The notes under the pieces: model-generated | Database searches by the model: none | What the model was told of the DNA's origin: nothing | The model's input: only the letters and a program-made list of their open reading frames with translations | Shown here: positions 10,577-46,909 of the stretch, one piece after another | Layout of the letters: each line of letters opens with the position of its first letter | Position numbering within the stretch: position 1 is the stretch's first letter | Program-made: the position numbers and the translations under genes | DNA from: Nitrospinia bacterium | GTDB taxonomy: Bacteria; Nitrospinota; Nitrospinia; Nitrospinales; JAJDAT01 | Assembly: GCA_029261715.1 (NCBI GenBank) | Contig: JAJDAT010000005.1 | Coordinates: 1 to 64,000 of the forward strand | Reading direction: 5' to 3' | DNA length: 64,000 nucleotides

Positions 10577-10831
10577 AAATTAACTATGAAGGTGGGAGTC
10601 TTTCCCAAGCCAAGGGTTTTATAAACTTATTTCATACTAAAAGAAACTTGTCTGCCGTAAAAGGATAATTTGTTAGACTTTAGAGTAGGGTAAGTCGTAT
10701 AAAATGGAAATATCCTTTCAAAGTTTGAGATTTGTTTTTTGTAAAACAATTAGTATCAATTATCTTTGCTCCCTTGTTTGTTGTTTGAGGAAAAATTTGT
10801 TTTAGATATTGTAGATTTTTAAAACTAAGTA

Positions 10832-11659
10832 ATGAGAAATTTTTTATCAAAATTACCGCTTTCGACTAAGCTCGCAGGGGGATTTATCCTCTCCATAGTG
10901 ATTGTTTCAATCTTCGCTTCTTGGATAGCTCCATTTCCTTATGATCGCCAAGATACCCTTAATTCTTTGGCTTCACCTGGCTATCCTTATTGGATGGGGA
11001 CAGATCGTTTAGGTCGAGATTTACTTTCTAGAATTATTTACGGCGCTCGAATTTCTTTATTTGTGGGAGTTTTTACAACCGTCGCCGCATTAATTATTGG
11101 GGTTGTTTATGGGACTATTTCTGGATATCTAGGCGGTCGAATTGATAGCTTTATGATGAGAGTGGTGGATGTTATTTTTTCTCTTCCCGACCTTTTATTG
11201 ATAATTTTGATTACAGTGTTAATGGGGCGCGGTTTGTTAGGCATTTTTATAGCGTTAACTCTTGTGAGTTGGGTTACTACAGCTAGGTTAGTTCGTGGAG
11301 AAACCTTGAAATTAAAGGAAAGTCAATTTGTAGAGGCTTCGCGAGCGCTGGGGGCCAACCATTTTAGAGTTATGTTTCGAGAAATATTGCCCAATTTATG
11401 GGGGATTTTGATTGTGACTCTTAGTTTTCGCATTCCAGTAGCGATTTTATCCGAGTCAACTTTAAGCTTTGTAGGTTTGGGAATAGCTCCTCCATATAGT
11501 AGTTGGGGGACGTTGACAAATGAAGGATGGATGGCGGTTAAGTTTTACCCGCATTTGATTGTTTTTCCTTCATTAGCTATATTTATTACTATATTGTCTT
11601 TTAATCTGTTTGGAGATGGTTTGCGCGACATTTTAGATCCAAAAGGCAAAACTGACTAG
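10832..11659 (+). CDS. oppC: Dipeptide/oligopeptide ABC transporter permease, DppC/OppC type
   Basis: Second inner-membrane permease of a peptide/nickel-type importer. After the first helix comes the DppC hallmark YWMGTDRLGRDLLSRIIYGARIS, read here in two halves (YWMGTDRLGRDLL, then SRIIYGARIS). The EAA loop follows (EASRALGANHFRVMFREILP) and the typical C-terminus ends NLFGDGLRDILDP. The length, 275 residues, is normal. The partner DppB-type gene sits at 5801-6715, so the pair is interrupted by a minus-strand signalling block. No ATPase or solute-binding gene is adjacent. Confidence 0.93.
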   Translation: MRNFLSKLPLSTKLAGGFILSIVIVSIFASWIAPFPYDRQDTLNSLASPGYPYWMGTDRLGRDLLSRIIYGARISLFVGVFTTVAALIIGVVYGTISGYLGGRIDSFMMRVVDVIFSLPDLLLIILITVLMGRGLLGIFIALTLVSWVTTARLVRGETLKLKESQFVEASRALGANHFRVMFREILPNLWGILIVTLSFRIPVAILSESTLSFVGLGIAPPYSSWGTLTNEGWMAVKFYPHLIVFPSLAIFITILSFNLFGDGLRDILDPKGKTD

Positions 11660-14754: not shown

Positions 14755-14934
14755 GTCTTAATTTAAAAGCGAAAAGAATTAAAAGTTAATTAATTTGCTA
14801 CCGCGTTATTTCTCTGTCTTGCAAAGGTTGTGATTTATTGTTGTTGGATTAATTTCCGCTAATAAAATACGATTTTTAGCAAAATTTTATTTTGATTTAC
14901 GCAAGACATAGCCTTCCATTTTTACATTTCGTTT

Positions 14935-17337
14935 ATGTCCACTCAAGATATTAGCCAAAATAGCGAGTCCTCAAGTTGGAAAGCCAATGTTGTCGGAATA
15001 TTATATCCCGCCTTTTTGGCTTTTATTATTCTGGACTGGGAATATAAAAACGAAAACTTTTTTTATTTTTATTACCGTCCTTATCAACCTTTGCTGGAAA
15101 AAATGCACAGCTTGCTGGTTGTTCCAGTTGGTTTGAGTTTTGGAATCCTAGCATTTGCGATATTGACATTTTTTCTAAATAGAAAGTGTGGATTTAAAAC
15201 TCATTTAAAGCAAGCTGTTCTAACAGGAATTATTTTAGGATTCTACTTGTTACTTGTGACTCTTGAAAATGATACCAAGGCGGGTTCGTTCTTAAATCCA
15301 GCCTGGGTACCTGGTCTCCCGTTCAAGACTATTTACGTGAGAAGCTTATTAAGTTTACTTCTAATCGCTGTTTATACTTTTGGTTTTTTTACAATCCTTA
15401 AACGACCTGCGGTTCTTGGAGTTTTTTCTAATTGTTTTTGGTATTTTTTTTCAATTCCTTTCATCTTCTGGATTTCTCCCACATATCATGCCCTTCTTCT
15501 GTTTTTAACGTTTTTGATTTTCTTGTTGGGTATTCAGTTTAGTTCAAAGTTCAATCTTGGCGATCGTTTTTCGGAAAATAAATTTTCTTTTGGTTTTGTG
15601 GTTATTTTATTTTTTGTGGCGTGTATTTTCCGTTCGTGGCTTTTGGACTTTAATGTGGAAAACAATTATTTAACGACCATTACCGATTCTGATGATTATT
15701 TTGAAAACTCTCAACGATTATGGGAGGGGAAACCACTAGAAGTAAGAGCGGTTCCTGCGTATTCGTATCTTTTATATCTTGTTTATCACATTTCAGGATT
15801 TGGTCTTTCAAAGGCTATGACGGTTTTGGGTACATTGAGTTGTTTGGTTCCCGTTTTAATCTTTTTTATTACGCGTCGAATTACAAATCTTCCAACCGCG
15901 ATATTAGCGGGGGTGGCCGCAACTTTTTCAGAACATCTCATCAGTTATGCGACGATTAACCATCGGAATGGACCCGCCGCTTTATTTTTGACCGCCGCTT
16001 TATTTTTTTTACTGCATATAAACTTGAAAAAGCCTTTAAGGTTCGCATTTGCTTTTGGTTTTTGTTTTGGTTGGGCGGCTATGCTTGACGGAGCCTCAGC
16101 TCCTCTTATCGTTCTCGTTTTTGTTCCTTATTTTAGAAAAGAGATTGCTCCATTTTTTAAAAAGATTTTTGTGACAGCCGCTTTAGGAGTCATTATTGCT
16201 CAAACGCCTTTCCAGTTGGTTATTTATGATCGATGGGAAACGATTTACCCTTTAGGGCGGCAAATGAGTTCATTAGACGCGCAATGGAATTACGCTCAAA
16301 TCAAAGAAGGAAAAGAACTGAAGGAAATGGGTTTTGATCCCCCCCGCGATCTTTTTCATAGCTTAAAGACTTTTTTGAAGGAGCCGATAACTGTTGGAAC
16401 ATTGCTTGCCGTTAAGATGTTTAAAGAGTTTCAAAATTATTTTTTAGACCGGCAAGTTTTGATTTTTGATTTAGCTTTGATGGATAGGGAAAGTTATTTT
16501 GGGGCGTCGGTGCGGTTTTATTATTTCGTAATGCTTGCCGTTGGTTCGGTAGGTTTTCTGCTTTCTCGGAAAATTAATTGGACAGAAAAAATTATTGTAG
16601 CCGGTCCTGTTTTCTATTCTTTGATATTTCATTCTATTATGTCCATGGGGACCAATAGATATCGTATCGTTACCCAGCCTCTTATTTTGATTTTGTTCGC
16701 GTACGGTTGTTATTTAACTGGGCGCTGGTTATTAAGTCAAACGAGTCCTATACCTTTGTTACAGTCTAATTTTGTTCGTAATAGAGTTAAGGCGTTTTTG
16801 ATAGGGTTTCCTACGAAAAATTTTAGATTTAATTTGATTGGGATTTTTTTGGGATTGATTGTGTATTTGGGGGCTATTTTTGATCAAAATCGTAAAACGA
16901 TTTACCCATTTCCTAAATCGGATAACGAATCTGGGGTCAGTTGGGGAGTATCTTTTAATAAGGAAAACTTTCAAAACAATATATTATTGCCAAAACCTGT
17001 AAAGATTTTAAAAGATGTTCCTGTGGATGGTAAATATTCGATCGCTCTCCGCTTTGCATCGGTGTTTGGACCTAGCCAAGCTAAAGCCGAATTTCTTCTT
17101 ATATCTAGGGGAGTTATTGGGAAAAGAGAAATTTCTGATCGAACAAAATGGATTTACTTCAACGATGTGCCATTAAAAAAGGGGAAGCAAACGTTTATTT
17201 TAATGAGTTCGGTTAAAATTAAATCAGGTACAAAAGAAAAAAAGAAGGGCGGTTATTTTGGAGGTTTGGGTAGAAGGATAAATAATATAGAACCTTTTAA
17301 AGTGACGGGATTTGAAATTATCAAATCGCCAGTTTAA
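14935..17337 (+). CDS. GT-C fold membrane glycosyltransferase (ArnT/PMT/GT39-like)
   Basis: Integral membrane protein of 800 residues with about a dozen helices in the first 630, then a soluble C-terminal domain. After a large N-terminal membrane block there is the GT-C first-loop motif DSDDYFENSQRLWEG, carrying the acidic pair expected to act on a polyprenyl-phosphate sugar donor, then PAYSYLLYL and an SEHLISYATINHRNGPAA segment. Such enzymes transfer sugars to lipid A, glycans or proteins on the periplasmic side. The acceptor here is unknown. The gene is monocistronic, and a second, sequence-divergent GT-C gene is at 31651. The C-terminal domain (about 650-800) looks beta-rich, as in carbohydrate-binding modules. 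Confidence 0.8.
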   Translation: MSTQDISQNSESSSWKANVVGILYPAFLAFIILDWEYKNENFFYFYYRPYQPLLEKMHSLLVVPVGLSFGILAFAILTFFLNRKCGFKTHLKQAVLTGIILGFYLLLVTLENDTKAGSFLNPAWVPGLPFKTIYVRSLLSLLLIAVYTFGFFTILKRPAVLGVFSNCFWYFFSIPFIFWISPTYHALLLFLTFLIFLLGIQFSSKFNLGDRFSENKFSFGFVVILFFVACIFRSWLLDFNVENNYLTTITDSDDYFENSQRLWEGKPLEVRAVPAYSYLLYLVYHISGFGLSKAMTVLGTLSCLVPVLIFFITRRITNLPTAILAGVAATFSEHLISYATINHRNGPAALFLTAALFFLLHINLKKPLRFAFAFGFCFGWAAMLDGASAPLIVLVFVPYFRKEIAPFFKKIFVTAALGVIIAQTPFQLVIYDRWETIYPLGRQMSSLDAQWNYAQIKEGKELKEMGFDPPRDLFHSLKTFLKEPITVGTLLAVKMFKEFQNYFLDRQVLIFDLALMDRESYFGASVRFYYFVMLAVGSVGFLLSRKINWTEKIIVAGPVFYSLIFHSIMSMGTNRYRIVTQPLILILFAYGCYLTGRWLLSQTSPIPLLQSNFVRNRVKAFLIGFPTKNFRFNLIGIFLGLIVYLGAIFDQNRKTIYPFPKSDNESGVSWGVSFNKENFQNNILLPKPVKILKDVPVDGKYSIALRFASVFGPSQAKAEFLLISRGVIGKREISDRTKWIYFNDVPLKKGKQTFILMSSVKIKSGTKEKKKGGYFGGLGRRINNIEPFKVTGFEIIKSPV

Positions 17338-23504: not shown

Positions 23505-25025
23505 ATGTCGGATTATTCTGCAAAAAATTATGAAACTGCGCGTTTTGGGAAGGCGATTATTTTTTTGACGATATTGTGCGCCATGTTTGCCGGGTATTGG
23601 GTTTGGAATATTGTGGCGGGGCGTGTTATTGATCGACCTAATCTTTTATTGATTACTTTAGACACTTGTCGAAAAGATCATCTCTCAGTTTATGGTTATG
23701 ATAGAGATACTAGTCCTGGATTGGTTGCTTTGGCGCGTGACGGTTTTGCCTTTGAGAATGTTTTTACTGTAGCTACTAATTCTCTGCCTTCTCATGCAAC
23801 GATTATGACCGGATTGTACCCTTTCCAACATGGGACTATAACGAATGGAGCAAAACTCGATATAGCGGTTCCCACTCTCGCGGAATTTTTAGTTAAAAGA
23901 GGATATAACACAGCTGGATTTGTAGGTTATTACGCGCTGGGGGAAGAGTCGGGATTAAATCAAGGATTCGAAGATTTTCAATTTCACAAAGTTAAAAGTC
24001 ATAACCATGATGAGAAAGAGCTCAAAGACGACGTTAAGGGTTTTGTCGCCGCATTAAATTGGATACGTGATTGGAACGAAAGTAACAAGGCTATAAAAGA
24101 TAAGACAACTCAAAAAAGATCTAATTTTTTTGTTTGGCTTCATGTTCAAAATATTCATGAAAGTTATGATCCCCCATCTCCCTACGACTCTTTATTCATG
24201 AAGATATCCAAGCCTGGTAGGCTATCGGGTTTCCCAGACGGATTTAGAGCTTATTGCTCCAATGATTTGGCGGATGCTTGGCGTAACGGAGTGTTACCGG
24301 AAAAATATCAGAAGGAAGCCACCGCATTGTATGACGGGGAAATTCGATTGGCGGACGATTATTTATCAAAAATTTTTTCTTATCTAAAGGAATCTGGTCT
24401 GTATGAAAAAACACTGATTGTGACTACTGCGGATCACGGAGAAGTTTTATTCGAAAAAGTAGCTAAAGGTTTTTCCAAAAATGGTCCGGGGCATACGGGG
24501 CGCTATAATGACGTTTCCTTGAGAGTCCCCTTAATTATAAAGCCTGTTAAATCGTCTGAATTCAATGTCGGGAAAAAACCATCGCAATTGATTTCTACAT
24601 TAGACATAGCTCCAACGTTAATAGATACGCTTGGTTTTCGAGTTCCTAGTTGGGTTTCTGGAAAATCTTTCAAGAATATGATGGCGAATGAAAGCTCTCA
24701 AGAAATCAATTCGGAAATTTATTTTCAAGAAACTCCATTTAAAAATACGACTTATACTGGGGTGAGAAACGCTTCTTTTAAATTGGCGGTCAAGAAAACG
24801 TTAAACGAGTCTCGATACATATTAGTTGACGTTAAGAATGATCCTAAGGAATTAGAATTATTAGTTTTAGAAAAAGTATCTAAAGCAAAGAAGCTTCAAG
24901 AAAAGTTAGATGAATTTCAAAGTCGGTTTGACGACTTTAATCTCAGCGAAATAGGAAAAATGAGCGAGAAAATGCAGAAAGCTTTAAAGGATGGAGGGTA
25001 TCTAAGAGATGAGACTAGCCTCTAA
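23505..25025 (+). CDS. Membrane-anchored sulfatase-like hydrolase/transferase
   Basis: Alkaline-phosphatase superfamily enzyme of 506 residues with one N-terminal membrane helix (about 15-38), so it probably faces the periplasm. Metal-site motifs are clear: LLLITLDTCRKDHLSVYGYD (about 47-66) and TADHGEV. The nucleophile region is TNSLPSHATIMTG: a serine (S93) in the S-x-P-S-H pattern replaces the Cys of classical CxPxR sulfatases. It could be a Ser-type sulfatase or a phospho-group hydrolase/transferase. It overlaps the next gene by 17 bp and is divergent from the dlt-like operon, suggesting a shared envelope role. Substrate unknown. Confidence 0.82.
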   Translation: MSDYSAKNYETARFGKAIIFLTILCAMFAGYWVWNIVAGRVIDRPNLLLITLDTCRKDHLSVYGYDRDTSPGLVALARDGFAFENVFTVATNSLPSHATIMTGLYPFQHGTITNGAKLDIAVPTLAEFLVKRGYNTAGFVGYYALGEESGLNQGFEDFQFHKVKSHNHDEKELKDDVKGFVAALNWIRDWNESNKAIKDKTTQKRSNFFVWLHVQNIHESYDPPSPYDSLFMKISKPGRLSGFPDGFRAYCSNDLADAWRNGVLPEKYQKEATALYDGEIRLADDYLSKIFSYLKESGLYEKTLIVTTADHGEVLFEKVAKGFSKNGPGHTGRYNDVSLRVPLIIKPVKSSEFNVGKKPSQLISTLDIAPTLIDTLGFRVPSWVSGKSFKNMMANESSQEINSEIYFQETPFKNTTYTGVRNASFKLAVKKTLNESRYILVDVKNDPKELELLVLEKVSKAKKLQEKLDEFQSRFDDFNLSEIGKMSEKMQKALKDGGYLRDETSL

Positions 25026-34630: not shown

Positions 34631-35614
34631 ATGCCTTTTCCGATTCATAGATTGAGAAGATTGAGAAAAACCGACGCTATCATGCGAATGGTACGCGAAA
34701 ATAAAGTGTCCGTTGACGACCTAATTTATCCATTATTCGTTTGCGAGGGCAAAGGAGTTAAGACCGAAATTAGTTCTATGCCAGGTAACTATCGTTGGTC
34801 TATTGATTTACTAGCGAATGAAGTTAAGGAGTGTTGGAATTTAGGAATTCCTGCGGTTATTTTATTTGGGATTCCGGATAAAAAAGACGCTCGAGGTAGC
34901 GAAGCATATAATCCTGACGGTATTGTTCAACGTGCTATTCAAGAAATTAAATCGGCGGTTCCCGAAATAGCGGTAATAACTGACGTGTGTATTGATGAGT
35001 ACACGGATCATGGCCATTGTGGATTGGTTGAAAACGGACAAATTTTAAATGACCCCACTTTAGAGCTTTTGGCTAAAATGGCTTTAACTCACGCAGAGGC
35101 GGGTGCAGATATTGTCGCTCCTTCAGATATGATGGATGGAAGGGTAGGAGCTATTAGAAAAGCTTTAGACCAGTCTGGATTTGGCGATAGTATCATAATG
35201 TCATATGCCGCTAAATATGCGTCTGCGTTTTACGGACCCTTTAGGGAAGCGGCAGATTCGTCCCCTCAGTTTGGGGATCGATGTTCTTACCAGATGGACC
35301 CTGCTAACGGTGAAGAAAGTGTCCGTGAAGTTGCCCAAGATATTGAAGAAGGAGCCGATATTGTAATGGTAAAACCGGCTTTGTCATATTTGGATGTTAT
35401 TTATAAGATTAAAAAAGAGTTTTCGGTTCCGCTTGCCGCTTACAATGTGAGCGGAGAGTATTCTATGGCGCATGCAGCTTCGGAAAAAGGGTGGTTGGAC
35501 GGCGATCGGGTTATTATGGAGGTACTACTCTCCATAAAAAGAGCTGGAGCGCAAATGATACTGACTTACTCAGCCAAACACGCGGCTAAAATTATTCAAA
35601 ATATTGTTCCTTAA
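34631..35614 (+). CDS. hemB: Delta-aminolevulinic acid dehydratase (porphobilinogen synthase)
   Basis: Condenses two 5-aminolevulinate molecules to porphobilinogen in heme/tetrapyrrole synthesis. Of 327 residues, catalytic lysines are K195 (SYAAKYASAFYGPFR) and K248 (VMVKPA). The metal region is DVCIDEYTDHGHCG, with C120, D122 and C130: two of the three cysteines of the classical zinc site remain and the middle one is Asp, a variant I recall from actinobacterial enzymes. Length and the rest are standard. The following gene starts four bases after the stop, implying coupling. Confidence 0.97.
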   Translation: MPFPIHRLRRLRKTDAIMRMVRENKVSVDDLIYPLFVCEGKGVKTEISSMPGNYRWSIDLLANEVKECWNLGIPAVILFGIPDKKDARGSEAYNPDGIVQRAIQEIKSAVPEIAVITDVCIDEYTDHGHCGLVENGQILNDPTLELLAKMALTHAEAGADIVAPSDMMDGRVGAIRKALDQSGFGDSIIMSYAAKYASAFYGPFREAADSSPQFGDRCSYQMDPANGEESVREVAQDIEEGADIVMVKPALSYLDVIYKIKKEFSVPLAAYNVSGEYSMAHAASEKGWLDGDRVIMEVLLSIKRAGAQMILTYSAKHAAKIIQNIVP

Positions 35615-35618
35615 GGTT

Positions 35619-36551
35619 ATGAAATCTAGTCCCATCCACTTACTTTTAAGCGAAACAGTTTTAATTACGTTGGCTATAGGGATTATCTTATTAGAATATA
35701 ATGTTCAAATTTTTGAACGAGGTATCGGACTTTACTTAAAATGGCATAATCATGAGCGCCCTCAGTTGGGGAGAATGTGGGACCGTGACAGACAAAAAAT
35801 TGTTGCGCAAAGAAAAATTCAATCTCTCTTAGCTTCGGTAAGCGTTAAAGAACGTACAAGCGAATCAATAGACTCTTTCAGCAAGTTATTTGAAAACTTA
35901 AACTCAGCGTCATCGCAAGTAATATCTAGAGATAAGTTCTTACAATTATTTTTTGATTATCCTGGACAGTGGAACCGAAAAATAGTGTCTCCTCTAGACA
36001 TGATTGAAATCGATTCTAATAGTAAATGGGATCGAGTTTTAATTGCGCGCTTTGGAATATGGCTCACATTGAGTTTTATCGATAAAGATAATATTCCGTT
36101 AAAAGAGTTTCATGTTTCGATGGATACCTTGAATGAAATTCAGTCGACGCGAACTGTCCAAAAAGGTAAATTGGAAGAGGCAGGTTTTAGGGACGAAAGA
36201 ATTTTTGATTTTCATCAATTTGTTAGCGTTTTAAAAACGATGGACCCTGCTTCTCAAAGCGCTTTGTTTCCAGATCCACAATGGTTTCTTTCAAGGGATT
36301 ACCATGTTACTCGAATTGGATTTGCGGACTCGAACGATATGGGAGGTTTTGAAGCTCCCTTGATTTTTGGAATCGAGTACGACACAGGTTATTACCCTAA
36401 CGTGTTGTTGATTCCTGTTCCCTTAGAAGTTTCTCACAATTTATTATCGCAAATTGATCCTGAAGAAAATGATGACGAATTGACAGATTCAAATTCCAAA
36501 GAAATTGAATATGAAAATGAGGAATTAGATGGTATTAATTTTGAAGGATAG
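35619..36551 (+). CDS. Single-span anchored protein of unknown function
   Basis: 310 residues with one N-terminal membrane helix (about 8-28, LLLSETVLITLAIGIILLEY) and a large soluble part of mixed structure with an acidic tail. I do not recognise it. Features worth noting: a WDRDRQKIVAQRKIQS helix after the membrane anchor, and a FHQFVSVLKTMDPASQSALF segment. The ATG at 35619 follows hemB so closely that its AAGG site lies inside the hemB stop region. Alternative upstream start: TTG at 35604. Confidence 0.6.
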   Translation: MKSSPIHLLLSETVLITLAIGIILLEYNVQIFERGIGLYLKWHNHERPQLGRMWDRDRQKIVAQRKIQSLLASVSVKERTSESIDSFSKLFENLNSASSQVISRDKFLQLFFDYPGQWNRKIVSPLDMIEIDSNSKWDRVLIARFGIWLTLSFIDKDNIPLKEFHVSMDTLNEIQSTRTVQKGKLEEAGFRDERIFDFHQFVSVLKTMDPASQSALFPDPQWFLSRDYHVTRIGFADSNDMGGFEAPLIFGIEYDTGYYPNVLLIPVPLEVSHNLLSQIDPEENDDELTDSNSKEIEYENEELDGINFEG

Positions 36552-36578: not shown

Positions 36579-37232
36579 TCATGTTTCTTGCTTGGTTAGA
36601 GGGCTTTTAAGTAAAAAAATAACAATTATCCCTGCCACAAACCCTATCAAATGACCCAACCAAGCAATTTGGGTTTCCGTTTGAGCAATACTGACAAACG
36701 CAAAGACCTGCCAGAATATCCAAAAAAATATGTAAACAAACGCTGGAGTTTTTAGAATATTAAAATAAAAAACCCAGAAAAAAAGTGTCAAAATCTGAGC
36801 TTTAGGAAATAAAATAAGGTAAGCTCCTAAGACTCCAGATATAGCTCCGCTAGCGCCAACAAGAGGAATGTTTTTCACATCCGAGAAAAATGAGAAACCT
36901 ATGAATGATAAAATTCCACAAGCTAGATAAAAAATTAAAAACTTTATCGGGTTAATCAGGTTCTCGATACGATTTCCAAATACCCATAAGAAAAGCATGT
37001 TGCCAATTAAATGTCCCCATCCAGCGTGGAGAAAAAGAGATATAAGGATTGTGGGAGCTTGACCTATTGGATTCTTAAATAACTCCTCCGGTATAAATCC
37101 GGAAGTGGGCATATAAGCTTCATTGGTGAGTCCAAACTTTCTACTAATGAAGAAGTAAAAATTTAGAAAGATAATTAACAGAATGGCGAGAGGAAACTTT
37201 AAAGGAGCTTTTTCGTCTTTTAAAGGCAACAT
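36579..37232 (-). CDS. Rhomboid-family intramembrane serine protease
   Basis: Six-helix membrane protein of 217 residues. The catalytic serine S128 sits in GASGAISG and its partner H194 in WLGHLIGFVAG; the oxyanion-site H74-x3-N78 is in GHLIGNML. All three hallmarks are intact, so it should cleave transmembrane substrates. It stands on the minus strand between unrelated plus-strand genes. Substrates unknown. Confidence 0.93.
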   Translation of the reverse strand: MLPLKDEKAPLKFPLAILLIIFLNFYFFISRKFGLTNEAYMPTSGFIPEELFKNPIGQAPTILISLFLHAGWGHLIGNMLFLWVFGNRIENLINPIKFLIFYLACGILSFIGFSFFSDVKNIPLVGASGAISGVLGAYLILFPKAQILTLFFWVFYFNILKTPAFVYIFFWIFWQVFAFVSIAQTETQIAWLGHLIGFVAGIIVIFLLKSPLTKQET

Positions 37233-37420: not shown

Positions 37421-39988
37421 ATGGCGGAGAATAACAACTCATCTGATGACTTGGAAGATAAAGAGTTTCAAGTTTCTCATAAAGAAAATGATGAGATTTT
37501 AGCGCCAGAAAACCGAGAAGACGATGTTGATTGGGTTATTTCCACTTATAGAAAACATGCTTTAAAAGCAGTTACCGAAGAATTAAACGCAAAGCTTGGG
37601 CCAAATAGAGATAAGAAGAGCTATATCCCTCCAATTGTTTTAGATCGTAATCCGATTAATTTTAGACAAAGTTTGCAAGACTTAGTTTTCCCCACCCCTA
37701 GAGAAGTAAATGAAGATTTATTAGAGTTACCCAATGGCCGAGTTATGTTGCAAAGCGCTTCGGGAATGGGGAAAACCATTTTTTTGAAAATTTATCAAGA
37801 AATTTTATTAAAAGAAGATTCATCGAGTCAGTGGTTCCCGTTGCCTGTTTATTTTCCCTTGGAAGAATTGCCAGAAGGATCGGGGTTGTCTTTTTTACTT
37901 GAAAAAGTTTTTGACATAATCGTTGACCTAGTTATGCGGGAACAAGATTCTGATCCTAATGCGAGCTTAGATTCCGAGGCTTTATTAGAGACTGTTCAGT
38001 TTCTGTATGGTGAAAGCAAGATTTTGTTTTTTTTAGATGGGCTGGATCGACTAATTCCTACAGATCGACTGCAAGCATTTAATAAGTTAGTGCTCGAGGG
38101 AGATACTCTTGGTAGTAATTTTATCTTTTTAGCTTGTAGGTCCTTTGACTTTGGTCCGATAGCCGACGAATCTATTTTAAAAAGAGGAAATGAAGCTTTT
38201 TTTCAAATATCTTTTGATGTCATCAGCGAGCGTTCTCAAAAAATATTTTTAGGAGATAAGAAGACCAAGGCTTTGGACAAGCTTTGTCTATTTAATTCTG
38301 AATTGTTGACTACTCCTGCGCTTTTAAGGATGGTTAAAAATGCATACGATCCGGAACGGGACGAAACAATAACACAAACGATTTTATATGACCGTTATTT
38401 AGAATATCTTTCTAGCCCAGAATATATAAGGGATTCTATTGCTAAGAGGAACGAATCGATACAATCAGAATCCGATGAGGAGAATTCCTCTATAGATGTA
38501 GATGCTATTAAAACGGGTGATGAATTAGAAAAGAAGATTGAAGACGACGATCAAGAAATTATCGAACAGGCTTTAACGAGGGTTCCAATAAATTTTAATC
38601 GACTTGAAAAGATTTCATTGGAATTAGCGCAAAGCGGTTGGTTCCAACGTACAGAAGAAATCGAGAAAGGTGTCGATTTAAAACGCCTTCTAAATACTGA
38701 TGAAGAAGAAGCTAGTATTTGGATTGATGATGAACTGGTTCCCGAACTTAAGGAGTTAGTTTATGTTTATGGAAAACGGTGGGAGTATATCCACTCATCG
38801 TTTCAAGAATATTTCGCGGCTCAAGCTTTATCTAAAAGAAGCGACTGGAAGACTATTACTGCAAAATATTGTCGTGATGAACGATGGCAAGAAATCTTTA
38901 AATTCTTTGCTGGTTTGACTCCTGATCTTAATAACGATTTATACGACATTTTTTTCCAAGAAGGCGCTTTATTCCCGGCGGGGAATGCAATCATGGAAGC
39001 AAGGGGTTTGGATGAGTTTCATAAATCGATTACTGGACAATTCTTAAAATATCAGTGTAAAGAAAGCTTCCCGCAATTTGTTCGATTTCGTTTGCACCAA
39101 CCTAAAAATATAATTAATTCGTTTGATCAAGCAGATTTAAAAAAGCTCATTGTTAATCTGTTAAGTCGTGAAAAACGCGATAGCCGAATTTTATTTGGCG
39201 TATTTGAATTACTTTTAACTTTATATGGCATAGATTTATTGGAAATAATCGACTGTCAAAACTTTGAATCCCTAAATAGCATTTCAGAGTTACAACCATT
39301 CATGGCCGAATCAAAGAATTTTGAAATAGTCGACCAAGAAACGATGCAAAAATGGGGTGAGTTACTGACGGTTACTGAAAGTAAGTTTATTTATCAGGAT
39401 GAAAAAGACGAAGAAGACCATGTTTTTCTAAAAGAATTTTCAATGATGAAGTTCCCAGTAACAAATGCTCTATATTGTCAGTTTGCCCCCAATTACCGTT
39501 TATTATTTCCAAGATATTCTAAAGAAGTAAATGAGCCTGTAATCGGCGTTAATTATTACGAAGCTAATATATTTTCTATATGGATGGGATTACGCCTGCC
39601 CACGGAAAAGGAATGGGAAAAATCGGCAAGAGGGTGTGATGGACGAGATTACCCCTGGGGGGAAGCTAGTGGTTATCAGTCTGGGTATACAAATACGGGA
39701 GATTTCGTTGAAGGAAAGGCCACTCCGGTTGATAAATTTGAACCCGGAGTTTCCCCATATGGATGTTATGATATGTCTGGAAACGTTTGGGAATGGTGCG
39801 TCCAGTTGCATGCTTCTCGATATACTACTCAAAGGATAGTTCGGGGAGGTTCTTGGTTAAATTATTTAGTTCATGCAAAATGTATATATAGAAATTCTTT
39901 TGACCCTTCCGAACGCTATCCATCTATTGGGTTTAGATGCTGTTCATTGGGCAGTACAGAACTGGAAGAGGAAGAAATAGATTGGTGA
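37421..39988 (+). CDS. NACHT/STAND NTPase with FGE-sulfatase-like C-terminal domain
   Basis: 855 residues. After an acidic N-terminal extension (about 100) comes a NACHT-type P-loop NTPase: Walker A ASGMGKT at 113-119, Walker B-like ILFFLDGLDRLIP with D206 and D209, and a winged-helix-like stretch ending YIHSSFQEYFAAQALSKR, typical of NACHT modules. A helical linker (about 500-660) leads to a formylglycine-generating-enzyme/C-lectin fold: GLRLPTEKEWEKSARG, DMSGNVWEWC, RIVRGGSW, YPSIGFRC. The catalytic cysteine pair of true FGEs is not at its place, so this domain probably binds rather than oxidises. A sensor with a signalling ATPase is the likely role. The gene is monocistronic. Confidence 0.85.
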   Translation: MAENNNSSDDLEDKEFQVSHKENDEILAPENREDDVDWVISTYRKHALKAVTEELNAKLGPNRDKKSYIPPIVLDRNPINFRQSLQDLVFPTPREVNEDLLELPNGRVMLQSASGMGKTIFLKIYQEILLKEDSSSQWFPLPVYFPLEELPEGSGLSFLLEKVFDIIVDLVMREQDSDPNASLDSEALLETVQFLYGESKILFFLDGLDRLIPTDRLQAFNKLVLEGDTLGSNFIFLACRSFDFGPIADESILKRGNEAFFQISFDVISERSQKIFLGDKKTKALDKLCLFNSELLTTPALLRMVKNAYDPERDETITQTILYDRYLEYLSSPEYIRDSIAKRNESIQSESDEENSSIDVDAIKTGDELEKKIEDDDQEIIEQALTRVPINFNRLEKISLELAQSGWFQRTEEIEKGVDLKRLLNTDEEEASIWIDDELVPELKELVYVYGKRWEYIHSSFQEYFAAQALSKRSDWKTITAKYCRDERWQEIFKFFAGLTPDLNNDLYDIFFQEGALFPAGNAIMEARGLDEFHKSITGQFLKYQCKESFPQFVRFRLHQPKNIINSFDQADLKKLIVNLLSREKRDSRILFGVFELLLTLYGIDLLEIIDCQNFESLNSISELQPFMAESKNFEIVDQETMQKWGELLTVTESKFIYQDEKDEEDHVFLKEFSMMKFPVTNALYCQFAPNYRLLFPRYSKEVNEPVIGVNYYEANIFSIWMGLRLPTEKEWEKSARGCDGRDYPWGEASGYQSGYTNTGDFVEGKATPVDKFEPGVSPYGCYDMSGNVWEWCVQLHASRYTTQRIVRGGSWLNYLVHAKCIYRNSFDPSERYPSIGFRCCSLGSTELEEEEIDW

Positions 39989-40392: not shown

Positions 40393-41736
40393 GTGGCTGT
40401 TCAAAAACCGCCGAAAAAGTTTTTGTGTATTGACGATGATCGGACGATGCTGATGATTACTCGGCAAATTCTAACCCGATCCTTTGGTCAGGACTCTTTA
40501 GAGTTTAGTGAAGCCTTTTCCGGAGAAGATGGGTTGGAAAAAGTTTCTAAAATTCAACCTGATATCGTCTTGAGTGATATACAAATGCCTGGCTTAAATG
40601 GTTTTGAAGTATGTCGCGAAATAAGAAAACGGTATCCTAAAACGGCAATTATCCTAACTTCTGCTTATGATGCTGAGCAAGATAATGCTATCAAAGCAAA
40701 AGAAGTTGGCGCTGACGCTTATTTATCCAAGCCGGTTAAAAAAGGCGAATTACTCTTTATTATTAATTTTATTTTAAGAGTTTCCAACCTAAACCAAACT
40801 GTTGGTGAAAAAAACCGACAGTTAGAAGAATCCCTTGATAGAGTCAAAAAATTTCATCATAAGCTAGTCGCTTTAAACGAAGAACTTAGAGCTGATAAGA
40901 AAAGGTTGAATTTAAACCTTCGCGAGATGGCAGAGCTAAATTCTCAATTAGAGGGAAAAAATAACCAAATTTCTTCAATGATGGAAGAAATGATGGGGAG
41001 ATTTGATTCAACCGTTTCCTTGCTATCTAATATTATTGAATTAAATAGATCTGATAGAGGGCATTCAGAACGAGTTGCTGAGATGTCTATTTTTATTGCA
41101 GAGAAACTCGGCTTGACTGAATACCAAGTTCAAAACGTAAAGGTAGCGGCTAGGCTCCATGAACTTGGAATTGTTGGAATGCCTGTGGCCAAAAAAGAAG
41201 CGGCGATGGTAGAAGAGAGAGCTGGAACTAAAAGTCCACATCCTCTTGTAGGCGAGATGTTATTAAAAGCTTATCCAGGTTTTGAGTTGGTTGCAGATAT
41301 TATTCGGCATTTACATGAAAATGTGGACGGTACTGGCGGTCCAGATGGATTATATGGAGACTCAATTCCGGTGGGGGCTAGAATCGTGGCGGCGGCGAGT
41401 TATTATGATCATGAAATAATTGCGAATCCAAAGCTAGGTTCTTCAGGAGCTTTGGCTAAGATGGAAGAAAAAAAGAATATAGCGTTTGACGATAAAGTTA
41501 TTTTCTTAGTTAGGGAATACATTGAGCTACAAGAACAGAATCCTCAAGATAAAATTATGGAATGTACGGTTTTTAACCTGAGCGAGGGAATGGAGCTTGC
41601 TTCAGATATTTTTTCTGAATCGGGGATTAATTTATTGAGAAAAGATACGGTATTGAATAAAGAGACTCTCAATAAAATAATAAAGTTTAATAACGTGGAT
41701 CCCATCGTAGGACCCATTAAGGTGAAGCAGAGTTAG
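40393..41736 (+). CDS. Response regulator with degenerate HD-GYP domain
   Basis: 447 residues. The receiver domain (about 9-125) is intact, with D62 (VLSDIQMPG) and K113 (YLSKPV). A long coiled coil (about 135-205) follows. The HD-GYP-type domain (about 205-400) has altered signatures: H256-E257 (ARLHELGIVG) instead of HD, and HLHENVDGTGGPDG instead of HHExxDGxGYP. It is therefore unlikely to be a normal cyclic-di-GMP phosphodiesterase and may be a binding or signalling module. A C-terminal extension of about 60 residues follows. The start is GTG at 40393, with GGAG upstream. It precedes motA by eight bases, so it belongs to the motor operon. Confidence 0.85.
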   Translation: MAVQKPPKKFLCIDDDRTMLMITRQILTRSFGQDSLEFSEAFSGEDGLEKVSKIQPDIVLSDIQMPGLNGFEVCREIRKRYPKTAIILTSAYDAEQDNAIKAKEVGADAYLSKPVKKGELLFIINFILRVSNLNQTVGEKNRQLEESLDRVKKFHHKLVALNEELRADKKRLNLNLREMAELNSQLEGKNNQISSMMEEMMGRFDSTVSLLSNIIELNRSDRGHSERVAEMSIFIAEKLGLTEYQVQNVKVAARLHELGIVGMPVAKKEAAMVEERAGTKSPHPLVGEMLLKAYPGFELVADIIRHLHENVDGTGGPDGLYGDSIPVGARIVAAASYYDHEIIANPKLGSSGALAKMEEKKNIAFDDKVIFLVREYIELQEQNPQDKIMECTVFNLSEGMELASDIFSESGINLLRKDTVLNKETLNKIIKFNNVDPIVGPIKVKQS

Positions 41737-41744
41737 GCGGTTAA

Positions 41745-42536
41745 ATGGATATAGCATCGATACTTGGAGTTTTTGCCGGTTTAGGTTTGGTAATCACCTC
41801 AATCTTGCTGAATAGTGGTTTAGATCTGTTCTGGAATGCCCCTTCCGCAATGGTTGTTATAGGCGGAACGCTTGCGGCTACTTTTGTAGCTTATCCCGTT
41901 AACGAAGTTATGCGGGTTATGGGGCTGTTCATGAAGGTTTTTTTGGTGAAAAAGACTGATCTCAGCGAACTTATTGACAACATGGTTATGATCAATAATG
42001 TTGCGAGAAAGGGCGGAATCTTAGCTATCGAATCCAAATTAAAAGACGTCAAACACGAGTTTTTAGAAAAAGGATTACAATTAACTGTAGACGGGAAAGA
42101 TGAAGCCACTGTTGCCGCATTATTGAAAAGAGAAATTGTCCAGCTCCAAAAATCTCATAAAGATGGTTGGGAAATTTTTAACGAAATGGGTAAATACGCT
42201 CCAGCATTTGGCATGATTGGAACTTTGATTGGTCTGGTACAGATGCTTGCCGACCTGGCCGACGTTGGGTCTGTTGGACCCAAAATGGCGGTTGCGCTTA
42301 TCACGACATTTTATGGCGCTGTGGTGGCCAATTTGTTTTTTATTCCAATGACCGTTAAACTAAAACGGAGGAGCGCCACCGACACCTTGGAGATGAATTT
42401 GGTGTTGGAAGGGATCATGTATATTCGTAAGGGCGTCAATCCTAGGTTTATGAAAGATGTTCTAGAAAATACTGTCGCCAATATTTTGGGTAAGAAGGTT
42501 AAAAAAGAAGACGGCGGTAAAGGAAAGAAAAAGTAA
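41745..42536 (+). CDS. motA: Flagellar motor stator protein MotA
   Basis: Inner-membrane stator subunit with four helices, 263 residues. Typical MotA segments: an N-terminal DIASILGVFAGLGLVITSIL, a cytoplasmic loop containing charged residues that contact FliG, and NEMGKYAPAFGMIGTLIGLV followed by the last helix pair. A basic C-terminal tail closes it. It lies directly after the REC-HD-GYP gene (eight bases) and 19 bases before motB, so an operon is certain. Ion specificity cannot be read from this subunit alone. Confidence 0.96.
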   Translation: MDIASILGVFAGLGLVITSILLNSGLDLFWNAPSAMVVIGGTLAATFVAYPVNEVMRVMGLFMKVFLVKKTDLSELIDNMVMINNVARKGGILAIESKLKDVKHEFLEKGLQLTVDGKDEATVAALLKREIVQLQKSHKDGWEIFNEMGKYAPAFGMIGTLIGLVQMLADLADVGSVGPKMAVALITTFYGAVVANLFFIPMTVKLKRRSATDTLEMNLVLEGIMYIRKGVNPRFMKDVLENTVANILGKKVKKEDGGKGKKK

Positions 42537-42555
42537 AGTTTTAATGAGACGATAA

Positions 42556-43380
42556 ATGGCTACCAAAGAAAAAGCCGAAAAAAAAGACGATCCGCCAGAT
42601 GATGATGATGAGGTAGAAGAGGAACCGGAGGAGGGGATACCGCCTTGGGTAATGACCTTTGCAGATTTAGTTACTCTTCTAATGGTGTTTTTCATTCTAC
42701 TCTTTGCCATGGGTTCTATTGAGGATGAGAAGTGGCGTTTGATCAAAGAATCCTTGAAGACCGCCTTGGGTGACGACGTGATTCCAGAAGCTGGAACGCG
42801 CTTAGGTTTAGAAGTTGTCCAAGAAGCGTTGGCGGAAAAAGCAGTTATTGCCGTTGATGAAGTGGGCGCGATGGTAGCGAAAGAGATTGAAGATCTTGCT
42901 TCTGAAGTGGAAGAGTTTGTTTATAAAAATAAACTAGCCGGTCAAGTACAGGTTTCTTCCGACGAACGAGGGGCAATTATTACTGTGTCAGATGTAGTGC
43001 TATTCCCAGCTGGCCAAGCTGCGACTTCTCCAGCAGGTAAAGAAGTATTAAAAAAGGTTTTCGATCTCCTAAAGCAGTTTGATTATAATGTTAAGGTGGA
43101 AGGACACACCGATAATATTCCTATTAAAACGGAACAATATCCATCAAACTGGGAACTTTCAGCCGCGCGCGCTGCAAATGTCGCTCGACAATTAGTTACA
43201 GCGGGATTTCCCCCTCAAAAACTTTCAGTAGAAGGGTTTGCTGAGTTTAGACCTAAAGTTCCAAACGATAGCACAAAAAATCGAGGAGTAAATCGTAGGA
43301 TTGAAATCGTTTACCAAAGGGGAAGTATTAAAAAGCGAATGGTCGACATCCTACGATCGCAAAAAACTGTTGTAAGGTAA
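42556..43380 (+). CDS. motB: Flagellar motor stator protein MotB
   Basis: 274 residues: an acidic N-terminal tail, one membrane helix with the ion-binding aspartate D37 in VMTFADLVTLL, and a periplasmic OmpA-like peptidoglycan-binding domain (VEGHTDNIPI, later NWELSAARA and NRRIEIV). Together with motA it forms the stator. The unusually acidic cytoplasmic tail (EKKDDPPDDDDEVEEEPEE) is longer than in E. coli. No other flagellar genes are in the window. Confidence 0.95.
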   Translation: MATKEKAEKKDDPPDDDDEVEEEPEEGIPPWVMTFADLVTLLMVFFILLFAMGSIEDEKWRLIKESLKTALGDDVIPEAGTRLGLEVVQEALAEKAVIAVDEVGAMVAKEIEDLASEVEEFVYKNKLAGQVQVSSDERGAIITVSDVVLFPAGQAATSPAGKEVLKKVFDLLKQFDYNVKVEGHTDNIPIKTEQYPSNWELSAARAANVARQLVTAGFPPQKLSVEGFAEFRPKVPNDSTKNRGVNRRIEIVYQRGSIKKRMVDILRSQKTVVR

Positions 43381-43455: not shown

Positions 43456-44556
43456 TTGAAAAATTCCCAAAAAGAAGCTTTCATGGTTAGAGCATTGCAA
43501 TTAGCGAAAAAAGCCATAGGGAAAACCAGCCCGAATCCTATGGTAGGCGCGGTAATTGTGAAAAAAGGTAAGATTGTTGGCGAAGGTTATCACAAACAGG
43601 CAGGAAAAGCGCATGCCGAAGTTGAAGCCATCAAAAAAGCGGGAAAGAACGCTCGCGGCGCGGATATGTTTGTGAGTTTAGAGCCTTGTTGCCATCATGG
43701 GAAAACCCCTCCTTGTGTTGACGCTATTTTATCAGCAGGATTAAAGAAAGTTTATGTTGGAATGACAGACCCAAATAAACTTGTGAATAGAAAAGGAATT
43801 GGTGTTTTAAGAAAACAAGGAGTTGAAGTAGAAGTTGGCATCTTGAAAGAGGAATGCGAACGTTTAAATGAGAGTTTCGCTAAATTTATTCAAACGAAAA
43901 CCCCTTTTGTTATTATGAAATCTGGGATTTCACTTGATGGTAAAATCGCTACTAGTTCTGGCGAGTCTCAATGGATTACGTGTGAAAAATCTAGAAAACT
44001 TGTTCATGAAATGAGAGGAGAAGCTGACGCAATATTAGTTGGCTCTGGAACGGTTTTGAAAGACGATCCGAGATTAACAGCTCGATTAAATAATCGAAAG
44101 CTGAGAAATCCCATACGAGTTATTTTGGATAGACGGAATCGAATTAAGGTTGCCGCTAAGGTTTTTGAAAATGCGGGTACGGATAAAGTTATTTATGTTA
44201 CTTCTCTTAAGCTTTCCAAAGGAAAAGAAAAGCGATTGCGTGATATGGGCGTGGATATCTTAATATTTCCAGAGGATGATAAGAGTTTTAAATTGAAGAC
44301 ATTGATGAAAGAACTTGGACGTAGGGATATAGTGAGTGTTTTATTAGAGGGGGGAGGCTTATTAAACGCTTCTGCTTTAAAAGAGAATATTGTTGATAAG
44401 GCGATATTGTTTGTAGCTCCAATCATTATCGGCGGTGAAAAAGCGCCCAGTTTTATTGGCGGTCAAGGAATCCAAAAGTTAAAGGATGCGGTTCGACTAA
44501 AAAAAGTAGAAGCCAAAAAAATTGAGGATGATCTTATTATTGAAGGTTATTTCTGA
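43456..44556 (+). CDS. ribD: Riboflavin biosynthesis deaminase/reductase RibD
   Basis: Bifunctional enzyme converting the GTP cyclohydrolase product through deamination and ribosyl reduction. Deaminase zinc site: HAEVEA and PCCHHGKTPPC. The reductase domain follows from about residue 150 (SLDGKIA, ILVGSGTVLKDDPRLT, LLEGGGLLNAS). The length, 366 residues, is usual. The frame starts with TTG at 43456 behind AGGAA; the next ATG at 43483 would cut into the first helix. It is the first gene of ribD-ribE-ribBA-ribH. No FMN riboswitch fits in the 75 bp upstream. Confidence 0.96.
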   Translation: MKNSQKEAFMVRALQLAKKAIGKTSPNPMVGAVIVKKGKIVGEGYHKQAGKAHAEVEAIKKAGKNARGADMFVSLEPCCHHGKTPPCVDAILSAGLKKVYVGMTDPNKLVNRKGIGVLRKQGVEVEVGILKEECERLNESFAKFIQTKTPFVIMKSGISLDGKIATSSGESQWITCEKSRKLVHEMRGEADAILVGSGTVLKDDPRLTARLNNRKLRNPIRVILDRRNRIKVAAKVFENAGTDKVIYVTSLKLSKGKEKRLRDMGVDILIFPEDDKSFKLKTLMKELGRRDIVSVLLEGGGLLNASALKENIVDKAILFVAPIIIGGEKAPSFIGGQGIQKLKDAVRLKKVEAKKIEDDLIIEGYF

Positions 44557-45212
44557 TGTTTACTGGAATTATTCAAACAGTCGGAGTAGTAAAAACTCTT
44601 GAAAATAAGTCAGAAGATGTTTTGATTGAAATAGAAACTCCTAGTGATTTTGAAAACATTGAACTTGGAGAAAGCATTGCTGTAAATGGCGTTTGTCTTA
44701 CCGCAATTGCAATTTTGGACAAAGGGTTTTCGGCGAATCTTTCTTCTGAAACTTTAAAAAAAACTTCTTTGGATGAGGTTCGAGCTAATACTAAGGTAAA
44801 CCTTGAACGTTCGTTAACGCCTCAAACGAAGATGAGCGGTCACTTTGTGCTGGGGCATGTAGATGAAGTTGGGACAATTATCGAAATTAAAAAGCAAGAA
44901 GGGCAAACCCTGTTTAGATTTAAACATAGCCCTGGAATGGCTTCATATATAGTCGAAAAAGGATCGATAGCGGTAGATGGAATTAGTCTGACTGTTTTTG
45001 ATTGTCGCGAAAATTGCTTTTCTGTAGCGGTTATACCTTTTACGTTGAGTCATACCAATCTTTGCAAGCGTAAAATCGGCGATAAGGTTAATTTAGAATG
45101 TGATATGATTGGTAAATATGTAGTTAAAGCTTGCGAAAAAATTTTAGGCGGACAGCCTTTAGAGAAGTCTGAGATCACCCCTGAATTTCTTAAACGTTAC
45201 GGATATGAATAA
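44556..45212 (+). CDS. ribE: Riboflavin synthase, alpha subunit
   Basis: Dismutates two lumazine molecules to riboflavin. Two homologous lumazine-binding barrels are visible: [10 protein letters not shown], then [13 protein letters not shown] in the first, and [12 protein letters not shown], then [12 protein letters not shown] in the second. The length, 218 residues, is standard. The start codon overlaps the ribD stop (TGATG), so the genes are translationally coupled. Confidence 0.97.
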
Positions 45213-45215
45213 ATT

Positions 45216-46430
45216 ATGAGCGAGGAAGTTTTTAACGATATTCCTACCGCTATTGAAGCGGTTAAAAATGGGGAAATGATTATCATCGTTGATGATGAAG
45301 ATCGGGAAAATGAAGGCGATTTAATGATCGCTGCCGAAAAAGTAACCCCTGAATCTATTAATTTCATGGCCAAGCATGGTAGGGGGTTAGTTTGTTTGAC
45401 TCTCACTCAAGAACGCGCAGAAGAATTAAGGCTGCCCATGATGGCTCCAGAAAATGAATCTGCATTTGAAACCCCGTTTACGATATCGATTGATGCAAAG
45501 ACAGGCGTTTCGACTGGAATTTCCGCCGCAGATAGGGCTCGGACAATACAAGTGGCTATTGACCCAAAGTCAACGCGAAAAGATTTAGCGGTACCTGGAC
45601 ATATTTTTCCTTTAAAAGCGAAAAGTGGTGGAGTGCTGGTTCGTAATGGTCAAACGGAAGGTTCTGTTGATATAGCTCGATTGGCGGGTTTAAATCCTTC
45701 GGGCGTGATTTGCGAAATCATGAATGATGACGGGACGATGTCTCGGGTTCCTCAGTTGGCTGAATTTTCCAAAAAGTTTGGAATTAAGATGGTCACGGTT
45801 AAAGATTTAGTTGAATATCGTTTACAAAGTGAGACTCTCATTGAAAAGGAAGCGGAAACCATAATTCCTACTCAATGGGGGGAATTTAAGTCGATCGCTT
45901 TTCGTAATGTTTTGATTGATCAAGTTCATATTGCTTTTGTTAAAGGTGACATTCAAGCTTCATCTCCAGTTTTAACGAGGGTTCACTCTCAATGTTTGAC
46001 AGGAGATGTTTTTGGTTCGTATCGATGCGATTGCGGCGAACAATTAAGTCGGGCCATGCAAATGATTCAAGATCAGGGTTTAGGGGTTTTGCTTTATTTA
46101 TATCAAGAAGGAAGAGGTATCGGGATAATAAATAAACTGAAAGCTTATGCGCTCCAAGATCAAGGGCATGATACTGTTCAAGCAAATGAGGCCTTAGGCT
46201 TTAAACCTGATTTGAGAGAATATGGAATTGGAGCTCAAATTTTAAGAAAATTGGGATTGGGAAAAATTCGTTTAATGACCAATAACCCAAGAAAAATTGT
46301 TGGATTAGAGGCTTATGGTTTAAGTATCGTGGAAAGAGTTCCGATGGAAATCAGCCCTAAAGAGGAAAATGTAAAATACCTTAAGACAAAACAGTCCAAA
46401 TTAGGACATCTTATGAAGAATATTTCTTAA
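45216..46430 (+). CDS. ribBA: Bifunctional DHBP synthase / GTP cyclohydrolase II RibBA
   Basis: 404 residues. The N-terminal half makes the four-carbon precursor ([28 protein letters not shown]); the C-terminal half opens GTP ([36 protein letters not shown]). In the first domain the usual GHTEA motif reads GQTEGS, replacing the conserved His by Gln, a variant I recall from other RibBA fusions. Its catalytic effect is uncertain. It starts three bases after ribE. Confidence 0.96.
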
Positions 46431-46441
46431 GAGAGGAATGA

Positions 46442-46909
46442 ATGGCAAATATTATTGAAGGAAACCTGATTGGATCGGGATTCAAGTTTGGTATTGTTGC
46501 GGCACGGTTTAACGATTTTATTACAGGGCGTCTTGTTGATGGGGCTTTGGATACTCTTAATCGTCATGGTGTTGATGAATCGACGATTGATATTGTAAAA
46601 GTACCAGGGGCTTTTGAAATTTTTATGGCCGCAAAAAAATTAGTCAAATCCGATAAATATGATGCCATTATATGTCTTGGAACCATTATTCGGGGAGCGA
46701 CTCCGCATTTTGAATATGTTGCCGCTGAGGCGAGCAAGGGAGTTGCGGCTGTAGCAATGGAAGCGAATATACCTGTTTTATTTGGAGTATTAACCACAGA
46801 TAACCTTGAACAAGCAATTGAAAGAGCAGGCTCGAAAGCTGGAAATAAGGGGTCTGAAGCAGCTTTAGCGGCTTTGGAAATGGCAAACTTGTTTAAGGTA
46901 ATGGAGTAA
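46442..46909 (+). CDS. ribH: 6,7-dimethyl-8-ribityllumazine synthase
   Basis: Makes lumazine from the RibD and RibBA products and usually assembles into icosahedral or pentameric shells. Of 155 residues, key segments are [27 protein letters not shown] and [16 protein letters not shown], the last carrying the catalytic His. It lies 11 bases after ribBA and ten before nusB. Standard length. Confidence 0.97.

Follow-up and report, generated by a model that had tools for sequence, protein, structure and literature searches.

Fusions of STAND NTPases to FGE-like (FGS) domains, those of the NACHT clade included, are predicted conflict systems, and one such fusion in proteobacteria and nitrospinae possesses a death-like adaptor (Kaur et al., 2021, PMC8195603). 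The published members combine a NACHT-clade STAND NTPase with a C-terminal FGE-like domain of the C-type lectin fold, carry an EAD or an effector (TIR, caspase, trypsin or kinase) at the N-terminus, and often occur in several copies and together with a DGR. The DGR-diversified STAND-CLec proteins, which likewise consist of a STAND NTPase with a C-terminal CLec/FGE domain, are considered putative antigen sensors (PMC10907252). Further, bacterial NACHT proteins have been established experimentally as anti-phage, and one of them senses infection indirectly through a host chaperone (PMC12169576).

The protein described here is encoded within a window of 64,000 nucleotides, the whole stretch of DNA that was analysed, on a contig of a Nitrospinia bacterium. 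It is an 855-residue protein in which a NACHT/STAND NTPase, made up of an NLR-like NTPase, a winged helix and a helical region, is followed by a C-terminal FGE-like domain. The first-pass annotation of this DNA had read it as a NACHT NTPase fused to an FGE-like domain lacking the catalytic cysteines, placed at the C-terminus in the sensor position and with no effector gene adjoining. The open reading frame, Pfam matches and alignment all bear out this domain reading, which holds family-wide. The same annotation thought that the protein might be undescribed; as an architecture it is not new, STAND-FGE fusions having already been published (PMC8195603). The parts of the protein are as follows.

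37421..39988, plus strand: whole open reading frame of the NACHT/STAND-FGE-like protein, ATG start, 855 residues, orthologues found
37421..37528, plus strand: residues 1-36, acidic tail of net charge -11, predicted disordered (pLDDT 34-41)
37529..37732, plus strand: residues 37-104, family-specific pre-NACHT module, with a helix at 36-59 and then invariant positions
37733..38440, plus strand: residues 105-340, NACHT NTPase core, from P-loop, Walker B, Pfam and model
38441..38590, plus strand: residues 341-390, acidic insertion largely missing in orthologues (gap fraction 0.67)
38591..38845, plus strand: residues 391-475, winged-helix region with the STAND/NLR histidine H458 in H-S-S-F-Q-E-Y-F-A-A
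38846..39364, plus strand: residues 476-648, helical region joining the NTPase and the FGE domain, from DSSP of the AlphaFold model
39365..39946, plus strand: residues 649-842, FGE-sulfatase-like (C-type-lectin-related) domain, from Pfam and alignment
39947..39985, plus strand: residues 843-855, acidic C-terminal tail, acidic in every orthologue sampled

The FGE-sulfatase family PF03781 matches residues 653-841 at 128 bits against a cut-off of 23.3 (E 6.5e-37). The PF05729 NACHT match of the window protein, over residues 108-217, reaches 24.0 bits against a cut-off of 26.7, and a NACHT match at E <= 0.01 is obtained in 15 of the 16 family members scanned, the best at E 1.7e-8. Across 38 orthologues, the P-loop core G115-M-G-K-T119 is invariant; as the first Walker A position (112) is Ala or Ser, the sequence contains the GxGK[ST] core and not the full GxxGxGK[ST]. 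Walker B residues D206 and D209 are equally invariant, and because the final acidic residue of the DGhDE motif is R or Q in most orthologues, this motif is partial. The sensor-1-like R240 is present in 29 of the 38; together with the R or Q after Walker B, its partial conservation suggests that hydrolysis could be weak. The winged-helix histidine H458 is kept in 37 of 38.

The resemblance to animal NLRs is apparent at the levels of both profile and fold. Among solved structures, a family profile of the N-terminal 640 residues matches NLRC4 (E 2e-7), in an alignment that runs through Walker B and up to the winged-helix 'H-SFQEY', the latter aligning with 'HKSFQEYTAG' of NLRC4. An AlphaFold model of the full protein (mean pLDDT 76, pTM 0.81) is of low confidence in its FGE part and exceeds pLDDT 90 for most residues of the helical region 476-648. 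The structure prediction recommended by the earlier annotation places NLRC4, NOD2 and NLRP3 at the top of the fold search (E 3e-9 to 2e-8), with low TM-scores of about 0.3, probably because the domains are oriented differently and the FGE part is poorly modelled. The matches in the PDB also include mammalian oocyte cytoplasmic lattices, whose matched chains we take to belong to the NLR family; there the fold is put to structural use. While the NACHT domain, the winged helix with its conserved histidine and the helical arm are common to both, identity to the animal NLRs is only about 13%, the Nitrospinales protein is devoid of CARD or PYD, and an FGE-like domain takes the place of the leucine-rich repeats. 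No transmembrane segment is predicted, the 19-residue hydropathy reaching at most 1.73, at residue 592 within the helical part, which is soluble.

N814 and L816 occupy, by alignment, the positions of the active-site (copper-site) cysteines C336 and C341 of human FGE. Position 814 is Asn in 38 of 38 orthologues and position 816 is Leu or Met in all of them, so the active site has no catalytic cysteine pair, and the FGE-like domain is, on the evidence of the alignment, predicted to be catalytically dead. The best solved-structure match of the domain is SUMF2, a non-catalytic paralogue of FGE. The protein thus belongs to the FGE family and resembles SUMF2 in its predicted inactivity, and differs from both in being a cytosolic fusion to a STAND NTPase. 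Modelled alone with 11 sequences, the domain attains a mean pLDDT of 34.8. Four cysteines within it (C782, C793, C821 and C840) are nonetheless invariant among the orthologues and might be taken for an active site at shifted positions, making the protein an FGE-type oxidase after all. We regard this as very improbable. It is the two structural cysteines of human FGE (RC-AAR and GFRC), and neither of the active-site pair, that C821 and C840 align with, and both positions are also Cys in CalU17 as well as in a KAP-NTPase-FGE protein encoded elsewhere in this genome; the invariable Asn and Leu or Met at the active site and the kinship to SUMF2 further argue against catalysis. Shifted catalytic cysteines were rejected on the alignment and on the shared cysteine positions of other FGE-like proteins.

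The FGE domain is also the most conserved domain, with a mean pairwise identity of 0.72 among the 38 orthologues, as compared to 0.56 from the P-loop to Walker B and 0.46 over the remainder of the NTPase; the winged helix stands at 0.43 and the helical part at 0.50. Its C-terminal segment, residues 805-842, reaches 0.76, the top value of all parts measured, and no hypervariable C-terminal segment is seen. Such conservation, judged from the aligned orthologues, appears to be the opposite of that of a diversifying sensor engaged in an arms race.

FGE-like domains are not confined to this gene. The window's 5.3-Mb genome contains 33 further matches to its FGE-like domain, a marked expansion of FGE-type domains in varied contexts. 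A sulfatase-family protein (PF00884) at 23505-25025 of the window is without the formylglycine motif C/S-x-P-[S/A/T]-R, the sequence at the corresponding place being SLPSHATIMTG; such a sulfatase-like hydrolase may well function independently of FGE.

The first 100 residues had been described as acidic and as a possible new effector or interaction tail. The acidic character is true of residues 1-36 and not of the remainder, and the tail is weakly conserved (mean pairwise identity 0.43). Beyond this disordered tail and the single helix at 36-59 no effector fold is recognised; the invariant positions that follow the helix, in a conserved stretch that reaches to the P-loop, are L74-D75-x-N77, R82-Q83-S84, R94 and E98. 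No Pfam or PADLOC domain was found N-terminal to NACHT in the window protein. A profile of residues 1-104, which served to look for the domain in other proteins, matches nothing but the orthologue, at one place per genome, and no second copy of the module exists in the genomes of the phylum; the N-terminus therefore qualifies neither as a known effector nor as an adaptor shared with other proteins. An EAD-effector pair was rejected, the module having no second copy in these genomes. At the other end of the protein, 6-9 of the last 16 residues are Asp or Glu in the orthologues sampled.

Presence was counted with tblastn and profile searches, and a few of the copies are cut at contig ends. The gene occurs as a single copy in 58 of 64 genomes of the order Nitrospinales and as a fragment at a contig edge in a further one (G048); completeness is only 57-78% in the five genomes of the order that do not have it. 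It is kept even in a 1.7-Mb genome (G004) that is 97% complete. In the other Nitrospinota genomes it is absent (13 of 13), the matches there covering generic NTPase parts only, as do the weak extra matches in the window's own genome. No match was obtained in 310 genomes outside the phylum at a strict E <= 1e-60, and none among phage and plasmid records. A pattern-limited scan of GTDB contigs from 84,980 species returned 52 loci, 50 of them from records named Nitrospina, Nitrospinaceae, Nitrospinota or Nitrospinae; the remaining two, from records labelled Nitrospirota and Nitrospirae, presumably belong to the same group. Distant STAND-FGE relatives are to be expected in other phyla, since the search outside comprised those 310 genomes at a strict threshold and the pattern-limited scan. 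A search of the literature on Nitrospina with NACHT, or with FGE proteome data, found nothing about the protein.

The gene resides in a block of neighbours whose order (rhomboid, NACHT-FGE gene, HD-GYP regulator with MotAB, riboflavin genes) recurs across the order, and which in the window comprises the following.

36579..37232, minus strand: rhomboid-family protease (PF01694), divergent neighbour
40393..41736, plus strand: response regulator with an HD-GYP domain (Pfam), downstream neighbour
41745..43380, plus strand: MotA and MotB genes, MotA by Pfam, MotB from sequence, with synteny
43456..46909, plus strand: riboflavin genes RibD, RibE, RibBA and RibH, RibBA by Pfam, the others from sequence

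The rhomboid gene lies upstream in 39 of 43 loci. Among the 45 loci having downstream sequence, the next gene is HD-GYP in 34 and RibD in 9, and hence one or the other in 43. Of the downstream context, the riboflavin genes are the most constant part. HD-GYP, and usually MotAB too, has been lost from about ten loci, in which the NACHT-FGE gene still adjoins RibD. Beyond the rhomboid gene, most genomes have next a gene some 420-430 codons long (CinA in all three tested), which does not occupy this place in the window. In G003 and G004 the NACHT-FGE gene has been relocated out of the riboflavin block, yet it sits beside CinA. A tree of the gene shares 16 of 19 splits with a RibD+HD-GYP+MotA tree of 22 taxa, with no well-supported conflict. 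Taken together, the trees and the synteny indicate that the gene is vertically inherited in a housekeeping context. As the conserved neighbours differ in function, the synteny names no pathway.

Two other genes of these neighbourhoods may be recorded. A 315-residue protein encoded after HemB (35604-36551 of the window) has no Pfam, NCBIfam or PADLOC match, and the neighbourhoods examined in relatives from the order do not contain it. An FGE-containing protein of about 1060-1080 residues recurs in several genomes of the order, close to an MFS transporter and to the neighbours on the CinA side (L040:1620-4808, L041:14678-17917, L047:2137-5310 and L049:1913-5149), with no further Pfam domain in the one scanned (L040).

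The first-pass annotation had further proposed an undescribed single-gene defence protein and had asked whether homologues cluster in defence islands. This proposal is unsupported: the gene is single-copy, near-universal in the order and vertical in descent, and where islands were looked for, a fixed housekeeping block was found instead in 43 of the 45 loci, such ties to housekeeping genes being what the annotation itself had held to speak against its proposal. PADLOC models match neither the window protein nor its relatives. As controls, the RT-Toprim of the same genome matches a retron model (E 1.8e-214), and the KAP-NTPase-FGE protein on the RT-Toprim's contig matches the PifA and QatA models. 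Diversification by a DGR was rejected: the sole RVT_1 match in the genome is this retron-type RT-Toprim on another contig and there is no DGR reverse transcriptase, no template or variable repeats are found near RT-Toprim, the genome has no near-identical copy of the 3' part of the gene, and residues 805-842 are conserved.

That other contig of the window's genome bears a defence-like stretch (L130:7804-16814; G000:C20, about 85.8-94.8 kb) with the RT-Toprim (PADLOC RT-Toprim_I-C) and a caspase-like gene (9947-11353). The KAP-NTPase-FGE gene (14796-16814, minus strand) follows about 3.4 kb on, with transporter-like and stress-protein-like genes in between. In G003, a caspase-PEGA-FGE gene (L039:5285-7285) lies near the relocated NACHT-FGE gene, the sole such linkage among the loci examined.

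Set beside its published relatives, the Nitrospinales protein departs from the STAND-FGS proteins (PMC8195603) in having neither EAD nor effector, a single copy, no DGR and the inheritance of a vertically transmitted core gene. Unlike the STAND-CLec proteins (PMC10907252), it is accompanied by no DGR reverse transcriptase or near-identical 3' template copy, and the very segment that DGRs vary there is the most conserved one here. With the bNACHT proteins (bNACHT25; clade 14; PMC12169576) it shares a central NACHT domain and, with clade 14, the want of a recognisable effector; those proteins end in SNaCT or NCH1, whereas this one has an FGE domain, no PADLOC match and a core-gene distribution. 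What is new, then, is an effector-less, adaptor-less and DGR-less single-copy core member of the STAND-FGE proteins with a fixed FGE domain.

Being encoded by a single-copy core gene and having a sensor end of unusual constancy, the protein probably acts as a switch in everyday signalling and not as an anti-phage protein. The reading we favour, at somewhat better than an even chance, is that it serves Nitrospinales as a cytosolic STAND switch of the NLR-like kind, inherited vertically and housekeeping in its role, responding to a constant endogenous ligand or partner. The FGE-like domain would bind this ligand or protein partner, and, by analogy with other STAND proteins, binding or its loss would shift the NACHT domain between a closed state with ADP bound and an open, oligomeric one with ATP bound. 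The output would reach a partner protein, possibly through the family-specific helix and the acidic tails, since the protein has no fused effector domain and none is encoded alongside. It may further be, and this part we hold more tentatively, that an NLR-like STAND-FGE protein has become an indispensable order-wide regulator, its once lectin- or antigen-type FGE domain having been fixed on an endogenous signal.

The main rival, unlikely in our estimation, is an innate immune 'guard' NLR, in which the FGE domain would keep watch over some conserved component of the host, and the NACHT protein would trigger cell death or shutdown upon phage infection. A conserved sensor would suit a conserved guarded protein too, and the indirect sensing proposed for bNACHT25 and DnaJ provides a precedent. 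Also in its favour are the experimentally anti-phage NACHT proteins and those of clade 14, which lack a recognisable effector (PMC12169576), the predicted conflict role of STAND-FGE fusions (PMC8195603) and the caspase-FGE gene of G003. However, defence genes are patchy and mobile in their distribution, unlike a universal single-copy gene handed down vertically among housekeeping neighbours; genuine defence genes in the same genome match PADLOC strongly where this protein does not, and it has neither an effector domain nor a partner copy of its N-terminal module. Next, and slightly less probable, comes a scaffold or chaperone-like ATPase with the FGE-like domain as a constitutive protein-interaction module, for example in the assembly of envelope or metabolic complexes. 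The strongest conservation falling on a rigid, interaction-type fold, the acidic tails at both termini, the unconserved sensor-1-like Arg and acidic residue after Walker B, and the fold matches to oocyte lattices, with chains presumed to be NLR proteins, would all be consistent with it; against it, essentially every orthologue retains the P-loop and the winged-helix His, elements that serve nucleotide-dependent switching in STAND proteins. The neighbours could instead suggest a regulator of motility or cyclic-di-GMP acting with HD-GYP and MotAB, given that HD-GYP follows in three-quarters of the loci (34/45) with MotA and MotB behind it in most. This is decidedly improbable, weakened as it is by the persistence of the gene beside RibD after the loss of HD-GYP and MotAB, and by its relocation in two genomes.

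Bacterial NACHT/STAND-FGE proteins are nearly always assigned, by default, to immunity or conflict, and this one evolves like a core regulator, a caution against annotating defence from domain content. Nitrospinales (Nitrospina and its kin) are marine nitrite oxidisers and an ecologically major group, for which the NACHT-FGE gene offers an order-wide marker. With its putative ligand-binding domain now defined, the protein could provide a lead to an unknown regulatory pathway in these bacteria.
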